Source: a virus. From it: 26,156 nucleotides of DNA. The DNA is taken from positions 1 to 26,156 of IMG/VR virus record IMGVR_UViG_3300005529_000089; one strand, given 5' to 3'. Below the pieces are notes generated by a model. It was not told the origin of the DNA and ran no database searches. It saw nothing but the letters and a program-made list of their open reading frames with translations. Positions 13,249-24,811 of the stretch are shown piece after piece. Positions within the stretch are counted from its first letter, which is position 1. Every line of letters begins with the position of its first letter. The position numbers were made by a program, and so were the translations under genes.

Positions 13249-13338
13249 ACGGCTCCCAAAGATTAAGCCATGCACTTACGCGCATGCCGCCTCCGTTCGG
13301 AGCGCTGCCACCGCCGCGCAAAACAATAATCCCGGTTC

Positions 13339-13388
13339 CCGGGCGTTTACGGGCTTTCCCGGGCGTTTCCGGGCGTTTCCGGGTTATT
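13339..13388. repeat. Five tandem 10-bp repeats upstream of the scaffolding gene
   Basis: The units are CCGGGCGTTT, ACGGGCTTTC, CCGGGCGTTT, CCGGGCGTTT and CCGGGTTATT, in exact 10-bp register. Three are identical. They lie in the only long gap between late genes and run into the candidate -10 element, so an operator, activator site or leader element is plausible. Confidence 0.85.
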
Positions 13389-20455: not shown

Positions 20456-21946
20456 TTACTGTCTCTGCTTGAAATCCTTCTTTGATAGGCCGCCGCTCGG
20501 CACGTGCTTGCCCGTCGGCGCCTCCACCAGGGCGTCGGCCGCGATGTCGAAGAATCGCGTCTGCGGCCGCCAGAACCACACCGCCGGCCACGCCGTCGGT
20601 CCGTTGCGGTCCTTGTCCTGCACCAGCTCGACCATCACCTGGGATTGCTCCGCCGTCTGCTCCATCCCGCGCATGTCCGTGTCCGGCGTGTAGAGCATCA
20701 CGATCCGGTCGGCCGCCTGCTCCACCGCGCTCGAGTCGCGGATGTCGTGGGCCTTCGGCCGGCGGTTGCCCTCCTTCCGGCTCTCCCGGTTCAGCTGCGC
20801 CGCCACCCAGCCGGTCGTGTTTACCCGCTTGAAGCACCGCTTCAATTCGTTCGCGATGTGCGCCACTTCCTGTTCCCGCACGTGGATCTTCTGCCGGCAC
20901 TTCAGCAGGTGCATGTGGTCCACCACCACGAAGTCCGGCGTCCCGTGCCGGCGCGCGTGCTCCTCCACCCGCGCCACCAGCGTCTCCACCGGGATCACGT
21001 CGTCGCAGATCCACAGCCGCTCGTTGCGCCAGCTGTGCCGCAGCCGCAGCTCCTGCTCGAACCGCTCGCGCATGTCCTTCGGCAGGTCGTGCAGCAGCCG
21101 CGCGTTCACCTTCGCCGCCGTCGCCGCCGCCAGCTCGAGCCACTTCCCCATGCTCGTCTCCAGCAGGAAGACCAGCCCCTTCTTTCCCTGCTGCAGGTTG
21201 TGGTCCGCGATCTGCCGGGTCAGGGCGCTTTTTCCGCTGGATTGGATTCCGGCGAAGATGCACAGCCAGTGCTCGTTCAGCACGTCGAAGGGTCCGCATT
21301 TCTGGTCAAAATTTTTCAGCCCCGTGTAAAGCCACCGGCTCCGGTCCACCTTCCCGTCCGCCCGGGCCAGGCTGCGCTGCAAGGCCATCGCCGCGCGCTC
21401 GTCCTCCGTTTCCCGGTCGCCGCGCACCCGCTCCACCGCCCGCCCCATTTCCGCGGCGTGGGCCTCCACCAGGTCGCGCAGGCCGCCCTGGTAGTTGAAG
21501 CACTGCTCCACCACCCCGGTGCAGCGCAGGATCAGTTCCCGCAGCGTCCACAGCTCCTTTAGCTTGTCGATGAAGTAGGCCGCCTGGGCCGTCGTCGGGA
21601 TCGTCGCGCTGATCTGCGTCAGGTAGGCGTAGCCGCCCACCGCCTCGAGTTGGCCCGCCGTCTTCAGCTCCTCCGCCAGCATCGCCAGCTCCACTGGCGG
21701 CCGCGCCGCGTATAGCTCCAGGATCTTCTCGTACACGATCCGGTGGGCCGGATTGTAGAACGCCCGCGGCCCCAGCTTCGCCTTCAGGCACAGGCCGATC
21801 GTCGCGCTGCCGTCCAGCAGGCAGCAGGCCAGCAGGTACTGCTCCGCCTCGAGCGAGTGCGGGGGCGCCCGGCCGGCGATCTTGCCGCCCTCGATCACCC
21901 GCAGGCCGGACCGGCCGTTATTTGCCGCCGAATTTTCCGCGTTCAT
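20456..21946 (-). CDS. Replicative DNA helicase, DnaB-type
   Basis: The protein has 496 residues, and the ATG at 21946 overlaps the stop of the initiator gene. The N-terminal DnaB domain (about 28-175) starts P-P-H-S-L-E-A-E-Q-Y-L-L-A. The RecA-like core has Walker A G-I-Q-S-S-G-K-S at 233-240, a Glu after it (L-L-E-T-S-M, 261-266), and Walker B F-V-V-V-D-H at 339-344. Motif Q-L-N-R-E-S (384-389), D-I-R-D-S-S-A-V-E-Q (401-410) and K-D-R-N-G-P-T (445-451) complete the DnaB signature. Length is normal. It unwinds the replication fork and is probably loaded by the upstream initiator protein, whose gene ends on its start codon. Confidence 0.92.
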   Translation of the reverse strand: MNAENSAANNGRSGLRVIEGGKIAGRAPPHSLEAEQYLLACCLLDGSATIGLCLKAKLGPRAFYNPAHRIVYEKILELYAARPPVELAMLAEELKTAGQLEAVGGYAYLTQISATIPTTAQAAYFIDKLKELWTLRELILRCTGVVEQCFNYQGGLRDLVEAHAAEMGRAVERVRGDRETEDERAAMALQRSLARADGKVDRSRWLYTGLKNFDQKCGPFDVLNEHWLCIFAGIQSSGKSALTRQIADHNLQQGKKGLVFLLETSMGKWLELAAATAAKVNARLLHDLPKDMRERFEQELRLRHSWRNERLWICDDVIPVETLVARVEEHARRHGTPDFVVVDHMHLLKCRQKIHVREQEVAHIANELKRCFKRVNTTGWVAAQLNRESRKEGNRRPKAHDIRDSSAVEQAADRIVMLYTPDTDMRGMEQTAEQSQVMVELVQDKDRNGPTAWPAVWFWRPQTRFFDIAADALVEAPTGKHVPSGGLSKKDFKQRQ

Positions 21947-22794
21947 GCGAACCTCCCCTCGTTTTCCTTCTCCCGCTCCCGCTGCCAGGCCCGCGCCTTG
22001 TCCAGCTCGCTCGGCCAGTTCGCTAGCAGGAAGGGCAGCGTCGTCCGCTTCCAGTACCGCCGGCGCGCCTCCTCGCCCGTGATCTTCGCCGCGTAGAACT
22101 GCCGCACCGTCTCCACGCACTCCGCGAAGTCCGCCTCCGCCAGGTCGAGCAGCCCGGCTTCCCGCGCCACTTCGACCTCCCGCGCCAGCCACGGCGTTTT
22201 TTCCTGGCGGCAGTACGGCACCGGGATCCGGTTCAGGCAGAGCAACCGGCTGCGTAAGGGTTCAGGCTGTTCTCCTGGAACTATCGCTCCCTTGCCCCTC
22301 CTCACCCCCTTGGGGGTTGGGGGTATTCCCTGTTCCTTTCCCTGTTCCCTGTTCCCTGTTCCCTGTTCCCTGTTCCCACCGGTAGCCTTACTGGAGTCTT
22401 CCGGTAGCGTTACTGTAGTCTTACTGGAGTGTTCTGAACCGTTTTTAGAATCGTTACTTACACCGTTGAAGGCGTCCTTAAGCTTGCTCCGTTGCGCCTT
22501 CGGCACCGATTGGTGCTTGTCGAAGTTGCAAACCCGCCCAATTTGGCGTCCGTCGGAAAGGTTCCGTACCTCTACGTAACCGATACTGGAAAGCTCCTGT
22601 ACCATTACGGTAATGGTTCGGGAAAGCTCCCGTAGTGGGAAAAGTGCCGCCTGGATCAGCCGCGGGTTGGCGTTGAAGAAGCCCTCGTCGTCCGAGTAGG
22701 TCAGCAGCGCCAGCGCCAGCAGGGCCGTCTCGGCCGGCAGCGTTGACATCGCTTCGTGGCTCCAGAATTCCGGTTTAACCGTTCGTATTCTCAT
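21943..22794 (-). CDS. Replication initiator/organizer-like protein with origin repeats inside the gene
   Basis: The protein has 283 residues, with ATG at 22794 in a TGATG junction. Residues 1-110 are a winged-helix replisome-organizer-type domain (R-I-R-T-V-K-P-E-F-W, A-L-L-A-L-A-L-L-T-Y-S-D-D-E-G, I-G-Y-V-E-V-R). Residues 111-180 form a low-complexity linker with G-N-R-E-Q-G repeats. Residues 200-275 are helical and charged, perhaps a helicase-loading part. The linker DNA carries 7-bp and 11-bp tandem repeats in changing reading frames, as in lambda O where the origin lies within the gene. It ends overlapping the DnaB start. The exact family name (DnaD-like or other) is uncertain. Confidence 0.85.
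   Translation of the reverse strand: MRIRTVKPEFWSHEAMSTLPAETALLALALLTYSDDEGFFNANPRLIQAALFPLRELSRTITVMVQELSSIGYVEVRNLSDGRQIGRVCNFDKHQSVPKAQRSKLKDAFNGVSNDSKNGSEHSSKTTVTLPEDSSKATGGNREQGTGNREQGKEQGIPPTPKGVRRGKGAIVPGEQPEPLRSRLLCLNRIPVPYCRQEKTPWLAREVEVAREAGLLDLAEADFAECVETVRQFYAAKITGEEARRRYWKRTTLPFLLANWPSELDKARAWQREREKENEGRFA
22339..22377. repeat. 7-bp tandem repeat, about 5.6 units
   Basis: The plus-strand unit is TCCCTGT, five exact copies in register plus TCCC, with one more copy 12 bases to the left (22327-22333). Because 7 is not a multiple of 3, each unit gained or lost would shift the initiator reading frame, and three units restore it. Confidence 0.9.
22379..22433. other. Candidate replication origin: five 11-bp iteron-like repeats
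   Basis: Five contiguous units read CCGGTAGCCTT, ACTGGAGTCTT, CCGGTAGCGTT, ACTGTAGTCTT and ACTGGAGTGTT. Six of eleven positions are invariant and the rest are two-way choices. The spacing is one helical turn. Since 11 is not a multiple of 3 the repeat falls in all three codon phases, so it is not explained by a protein repeat. An AT-richer stretch (TTTTTAGAATCG) follows within about 15 bases. The site lies in the initiator gene, upstream of DnaB. Confidence 0.6.
22601..22617. repeat. Perfect 17-bp palindrome inside the initiator gene
   Basis: ACCATTAC, a central G, then GTAATGGT. It lies between two near-identical 14-bp direct repeats (22588-22601 and 22621-22634, 13 of 14 matching, 33 bases apart). 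The direct repeats encode E-L-S twice, so part of this may be coding, but the palindrome is not explained by that. It could be an initiator or operator site. Confidence 0.7.
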
Positions 22795-24532: not shown

Positions 24533-24811
24533 TTAACGCGAGAGAACTCGCAGAAAAAACGCCGGTTTCGGCCGTGGCCGCGGATACGCGCGCCAGGCAT
24601 CCGAAATCTCGGGTGTGACCAGCAAGTGGCAGCGCCAAATCCGGCCTAATTCGGCGTCAAATAATCCACCAGGTAGCAGCCTGCGGCCGACGCGCTGCAG
24701 CGCCTTCAGCCCTGCTTTCGTCCTGGGCGCACCTAGGCCTTGAAGGGCGTCGGTCCCGCACTCGGTGCCATGGCGCAGGATTGTCAGCTGTGCATAGACG
24801 GCGAGCTTCAT
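24533..24811 (-). CDS. Hypothetical small basic protein
   Basis: The protein has 92 residues. ATG at 24811 was chosen over longer reads because it has AAGGAGG in front and overlaps the upstream stop by 4 bases. It is basic, with L-T-I-L-R-H-G-T-E-C-G-T-D-A-L-Q-G-L and a turn-rich middle. I-W-R-C-H-L-L-V-T-P-E-I follows, and the end is R/P-rich (Y-P-R-P-R-P-K-P). No family is recognised. Confidence 0.75.
   Translation of the reverse strand: MKLAVYAQLTILRHGTECGTDALQGLGAPRTKAGLKALQRVGRRLLPGGLFDAELGRIWRCHLLVTPEISDAWRAYPRPRPKPAFFLRVLSR

Follow-up and report, generated by a model that had tools for sequence, protein, structure and literature searches.

Intragenic iteron origins are known from phage lambda, and the locus described here raises the question whether repeats inside a predicted replication initiator gene of another virus form such an origin. 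The window, i.e. the whole stretch of DNA analysed, is the 26,156-base virus record IMGVR_UViG_3300005529_000089 (IMG/VR). Very probably these repeats are a phage replication origin of the lambda O type, located within its own initiator gene; binding and the start of replication are inferred in this reading and no replication data are available.

Judged from its sequence, the protein encoded by the repeat-bearing gene is a member of the phrog_1408 group of phage replication initiation proteins. The phrog_1408 profile match covers aa 1-161, and four more PHROGs labelled 'replication initiation protein' also match. Directly downstream, with overlapping ends (Table 1), lies a helicase gene, and its assignment to the DnaB type in an earlier note on this DNA was supported by Pfam (DnaB_C, 2e-33; DnaB N, 7e-22) and by phrog_19 (8e-65). 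AlphaFold predicts a winged-helix domain with pLDDT >90 for most of its residues, containing a helix at aa 61-70 and strands at aa 74-78 and 84-88, followed by a mostly disordered linker (pLDDT <50 for most of aa 119-203). Foldseek returned only generic winged-helix matches, the top one being an entry titled 'Structure of initiator' (E 0.005), and a PDB sequence search with the N-terminal domain gave nothing meaningful. The initiator had been described as unrelated-looking to lambda O; indeed, blastp of the two proteins gave no significant match (best E 3.2), and an O-type C-terminal domain is absent from the window protein. No DNA similarity of the initiator region to known phages was found, and an Rfam search gave no match. 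Near the initiator gene no sigma-70 promoters were found, and terminator-like sites were not clearly above chance. The GC skew of the window is negative almost throughout, without a clear switch, and cannot place an origin. Separate from the origin-like region, a 10-bp tandem repeat (GTTTCCGGGC, 4.9 copies, score 70) is present at 13335-13383.

Table 1 Features of the initiator region (positions in the window)
Feature	Position	Strand	Remarks
DnaB-like replicative helicase	20456..21946	-	start overlaps initiator stop
Initiator gene	21943..22794	-	283 aa; phrog_1408, E 8.9e-28
Initiator protein parts (predicted)			winged helix aa 1-111; disordered linker ~aa 119-205; helical C-terminal part
Purine array	22326..22377	-	coding strand GGGAACA x5, GGGAAA, GGAACA, GGGAA; score 90
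Iteron cluster 2	22379..22433	-	five 11-bp units ACTCCAGTAAG / ACTACAGTAAC / GCTACCGGAAG / ACTCCAGTAAG / GCTACCGGTGG, in linker codons
Moderately AT-richer stretch	~22434..22472	.	between clusters 1 and 2; ~44% GC (counted) vs ~62-65% around
Iteron cluster 1	22560..22638	-	11-bp-period dyad sites CTACGGGAG, TTACCGTAA, GTACAGGAG and weaker ones
17-bp palindrome ACCATTACGGTAATGGT	22601..22617	.	extended TTACCGTAA unit of cluster 1

The gene contains three DNA elements, two iteron clusters and a purine array, of which the earlier note had caught only cluster 2, the array and the palindrome. Cluster 2 was found as described there, with five 11-bp repeats in exact register whose units fall in all three codon phases (1, 0, 2, 1, 0), and one base away lies the 7-bp array, TTCCCTG (reported as GGGAACA of the coding strand) in 7.7 copies. 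The palindrome exists as well, but it does not stand alone: it forms one unit of cluster 1, in 11-bp register with its neighbours. The AT-richer stretch is likewise present, its enrichment being moderate. Cluster 2 and the array lie in the least constrained part of the protein, because this segment is predicted to be mostly disordered, and cluster 1 overlaps the codons of the predicted recognition helix. Chance was assessed by permuting codons among synonyms within the same gene. Of 1000 such permutations, 1 equalled the highest tandem score of the 11-bp block in cluster 2. Matches summed over lags 11, 22 and 33 amounted to 71 in cluster 2 (null 46.2, sd 3.9) and 92 in cluster 1 (null 61.3, sd 5.0), values reached in 0 of 500 permutations in both cases. 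A dyad pattern (CTACCGGAA, CTCCAGTAA, TTACCGTAA and similar) occurs 18 times in the gene, counting both strands, versus 5.1 expected (0/500), and 7 of its 9 coding-strand positions belong to cluster 1 or cluster 2, where, inside either cluster, they are multiples of 11 bp apart; as the pattern was composed after the units had been seen, its test is illustrative only.

Relatives of the window protein were initially searched with the array peptide, and a whole-protein phage search extended through the array, so that neither search was free of bias. A new search used only the N-terminal domain; a few members of the pooled set still stem from the first searches. The domain search yielded at least 568 relatives in IMG/VR, of which the best 80 were used, and 265 in bacterial genomes, of which again the best 80 were used. 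Hosts among the relatives include gamma-, alpha- and betaproteobacteria, Verrucomicrobia, planctomycetes, actinobacteria, Bacteroidales and Gemmatimonadales. A GGRA-dense array (at least five GGRA motifs within 40 nt) is located in the linker of 107 of the 118 non-redundant relatives. In most cases it comes after 11-bp dyad iterons, which vary in sequence from lineage to lineage; the units ahead of the array include CTCACTGAG, CTCGCGAG, TACCGTA/TACGGTA, GAACGTTC, TCGACGA, TCCGGA and CACGCGTG, often short dyads. In the 62 nt before the array the pooled lag-11 identity is 0.448, compared to 0.335 (sd 0.006) for the synonymous null and values near 0.23 for neighbouring lags, and AT content is 6-7 percentage points higher ~60-120 nt before the array. 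Tested gene by gene (P ≤ 0.05), 69 of the 118 passed the iteron test and 69 the array test, 44 passing both; the per-gene null is conservative, since the permuted codons include those of the repeats themselves, but the signal remains weak in many single genes. Loss of the repeats in relatives that keep the protein had been named as an observation that would refute the origin. Most relatives have iterons and array, and a clear array is absent only from distant subfamilies keeping the domain (e.g. L260, L276, L279, L281, L284, L294, L305 and L306); the relative in phage Mx8 (p19, L375) is also without array. The linker of the Mx8 protein after aa 120 resembles, by eye, a GIY-YIG or T5orf172 domain. 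The layout of iterons and array was also found in phage Nazo and in two circular phage-plasmid records (L372, L373), for which no other initiator is annotated in the stretch seen.

Sites over the recognition-helix codons are not confined to the window gene. In 101 relatives, 8-mers shared with the gene's own linker iterons concentrate at gene nt 150-225, where 62 genes have at least one; at nt 165-180 they cover 24% of bases versus 6.5% after synonymous permutation, and no comparable enrichment was seen elsewhere in the N-terminal domain of these genes. Family-wide, identity at lags 11/22/33 is 0.350 versus 0.287 (sd 0.0024) at nt 150-228, and 0.255 versus 0.250 in a control stretch (nt 20-130). 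A clear example of cluster 1 is found in Phrann, with CGCGAGACCCTCGCGAGACCCTCGCGAGAGTGTCGCGAGGGT at nt 176-217. The distance between clusters 1 and 2, taken from the shared 8-mers of the 101 relatives, peaks at 6 modulo 11 (46/114); the two clusters may lie at a fixed mutual offset, but phylogenetic inertia is also possible. Nearest-neighbour agreement between helix residues and iteron class is 60%, compared with 56% for the remainder of the domain and 25% by chance. This link is no evidence for coevolution of a recognition code, since sites are present in the helix codons themselves.

The purine array is built of G runs split by AAA, AACA, AA, AAT or ATCA, mostly with 5-7 nt per unit, and is near-invariant in relatives, whereas the iteron sequence and the C-terminal domain vary. 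Its AT excess is merely 0.02-0.04 above the gene mean. Arginine is encoded in the arrays by AGG in 91% of cases versus 12% outside, and by AGA in 3% versus 13%; because purine content served to define the array boundaries, the purine codon bias is circular in part, and only the purine-versus-purine contrasts AGG/AGA and GAA/GAG were used. In a blind scan of all IMG/VR contigs with the exact 18-mer GGAACAGGGAACAGGGAA, 84 of 120 matching stretches lay in an ORF for the winged-helix domain, all on the coding strand; most of the remaining matches seem to be GGGAACA minisatellites without relation to the family, and a few are family members that are split or truncated. A similar blind scan of IMG/VR with the 19-mer GGAAAGGAACAGGGAAAGG placed 49 of 53 matches within ORFs of this family. 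In family ORFs the array was always on the coding strand, with none opposite among the 173 pattern loci. A control heptamer scan (27 stretches) did not provide a clean background, as 5 of the stretches are in family ORFs, apparently as arrays of GGAGACA units. GGGAACA minisatellites unrelated to the initiator were seen in L028, L050, L094, L120 and others, often in the opposite frame (SLFPVPC peptides).

Selection on the DNA itself was examined in 141 gene pairs with 50-97% protein identity, which are not phylogenetically independent, by counting synonymous changes in codons of conserved amino acids. The change per conserved codon is 0.416 in the rest of the domain (first 150 nt), 0.300 between the clusters and 0.311 in the C-terminal part, but 0.200 in cluster 1, 0.166 in cluster 2 and only 0.053 in the array. 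Values below the domain rate were obtained for the array in 137 of the 141 pairs, for cluster 2 in 134 and for cluster 1 in 123. Selection thus acts on the DNA of the iterons and the array. The reduced synonymous change and the blind DNA pattern scans show constraint at the DNA level, in support of the earlier contention that protein constraint does not explain the repeats.

The C-terminal parts of the relatives are interchangeable, and three kinds are recognizable as replication modules: a DnaT domain in Tyrion, Phg_2220_C in L142 and a lambda-O-like domain in L007, L008, L013 and L015 (E 2e-8 to 1e-10, the latter for L013). By sequence comparison, the lambda-O-like C-terminus of these four, carried on an unrelated-looking N-terminal domain, is a clear domain swap. 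The four are the Streptomyces phages Austintatious and Alderaan and two IMG/VR contigs. Genes following the initiator code for a DnaB-type helicase in the window and in L014, L177, L192, L196, L212 and L309, a primase/helicase in L185, a DnaC-like protein in L142 and L309 and a P-like loader in L136, the lambda P homologue being found at this place in Tyrion as well as in L136.

As in ori-lambda, the iterons are situated in the initiator gene, in codons between the N- and C-terminal domains, and are followed immediately by a purine-asymmetric tract on the coding strand (by comparison with the lambda O sequence); a helicase-loading gene adjoins, and some relatives share the O C-terminal domain. 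Unlike lambda, with four 18-bp iterons spaced 20-24 bp, the window has 8-9-bp dyads 11 bp apart and a second cluster over the recognition-helix codons, and the tract of the window and its family is G-rich (GGGAACA/GGAAA) while that of lambda is AT-rich. The lambda-O-like layout proposed earlier is retained for the intragenic iterons, the adjacent strand-asymmetric purine tract and the neighbouring helicase gene, though not for an AT-rich element. Iterons, purine tract, helicase-recruiting C-terminus and helicase or loader gene follow one another as they do in ori-lambda, and a lambda-like mode of working was inferred. The winged-helix domain (aa 1-111) would bind the dyad sites, spaced by about one helical turn, in two clusters, the first over the recognition-helix codons, the second where the disordered linker is encoded. 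The resulting nucleoprotein complex may destabilise or remodel the purine array, which lies directly downstream, and the C-terminal part, alone or via a loader, would deliver the neighbouring DnaB-type helicase. Binding by the initiator, opening of the strands at the array, loading of the helicase and a replication start at this site all remain inferences: there are no binding, footprint or marker-frequency data, and the array, unlike a standard unwinding element, is not AT-rich.

The array is constant while iterons and C-termini change, and its partner is therefore probably either some conserved factor or else the structure of the DNA. Single-strand capture, an R-loop or quadruplex and simple melting are all open as modes of action, none being singled out. 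Within the origin reading, a confidence just short of even is attached to the array being a single-strand recognition element of the DnaA-trio or iteron-plasmid strand-capture type, held by the initiator or by a widely conserved host factor and serving as helicase entry site. Its near-constancy fits a conserved partner, and in lambda the purines of the AT-rich region are almost all on one strand (PMC5043065), with the purine run in lambda O following the iterons. However, the unit length varies, mostly between 5, 6 and 7 nt, and there are no single-strand binding data.

In ColE1-type origins a G-rich stretch is thought to open the origin or prime synthesis via an R-loop or quadruplex. That transcription of the array likewise gives rise to a stable R-loop or quadruplex, by which the origin is opened or synthesis primed, is a tentative and rather unlikely variant of the origin reading. 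The transcript is rich in purines, and GG/GGG runs recur at regular intervals on the displaced coding strand, with loops of mostly AA, AAA, AAT or AACA; a two-tetrad motif fits 100 of 101 arrays, and firing of the lambda origin requires transcription (PMC5043065). The three-G motifs, however, fit just 26 of the 101, and the two-G motif is weak evidence since any GGAAA array meets it. The invariable coding-strand position of the array also agrees with a role of the transcript, but orientation is equally fixed by the place of the array beside the iterons, so that the strand bias does not discriminate between the models.

Plasmid iterons also serve copy control, and intragenic repeat elements with other roles are known. 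The elements could accordingly be a control site (an autoregulation operator, a partition or incompatibility site or a cis immunity site) and not an origin, but this is improbable in view of the helicase and loader neighbours, the lambda O and DnaT C-termini and the lambda-like order of iterons and purine tract. Slippage in a disordered Gly/Lys/Glu-rich linker, leaving repeats without DNA function, is scarcely credible: both linker elements do lie in the predicted disordered segment and GGGAACA minisatellites are found elsewhere, but the array shows the least synonymous change and both clusters show less than the domain, arginine in the arrays is almost solely AGG, the placement is identical across phyla and cluster 1 is in the folded domain.

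The origin reading was also compared with other known systems. Iteron plasmid origins (RK2, F and P1 type) have initiator-specific direct repeats in helical phase (PMC5043065), as does the window gene, whose sites by contrast lie within coding sequence, have dyad-symmetric cores and are accompanied neither by AT-rich 13-mers nor by a DnaA-like box (TTATNCACA, at most one mismatch) within ~1.9 kb of the gene, the nearest being at 24789. For the extrachromosomal mycobacteriophages Miko and Jeeves, repA was found to be sufficient for replication, and the origin was suspected within or beside repA; the region searched, outside repA, was without repeats (PMC7157519). The suspected location in or by the initiator gene is shared with the window, although kinship of Miko RepA to the window family is not established. 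No intragenic origin of the present type was found in the open literature (subscription papers were not covered), and a literature search for the exact array sequence gave one unrelated paper only. As far as searched, the wide occurrence of the family signature, the presence of sites in recognition-helix codons and the G-rich array are new.

It is an evenly balanced question whether these genes represent a widespread class of phage origins, with binding sites partly in the codons of their own recognition helix and a near-invariant G-rich array, its partner conserved across phyla, in place of an AT-rich unwinding element. If so, one sequence would constrain both the specificity of the protein and its DNA target. 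The signature of 11-bp dyad iterons and a GGAAA/GGGAACA array marks probable origins in temperate phages and phage-plasmids of many phyla, and a readable signature is useful because origins are almost never annotated in them. It also raises the questions by what means a purine array that is not AT-rich can serve an origin, and how the evolution of an initiator proceeds when recognition helix and target share codons. A different protein (L325, L349) has repeated CPEGQPLHVPEMSLGTTTT units followed by a GKGKEQGKEQ array with the same purine grammar, and is possibly encoded by another origin-bearing gene.
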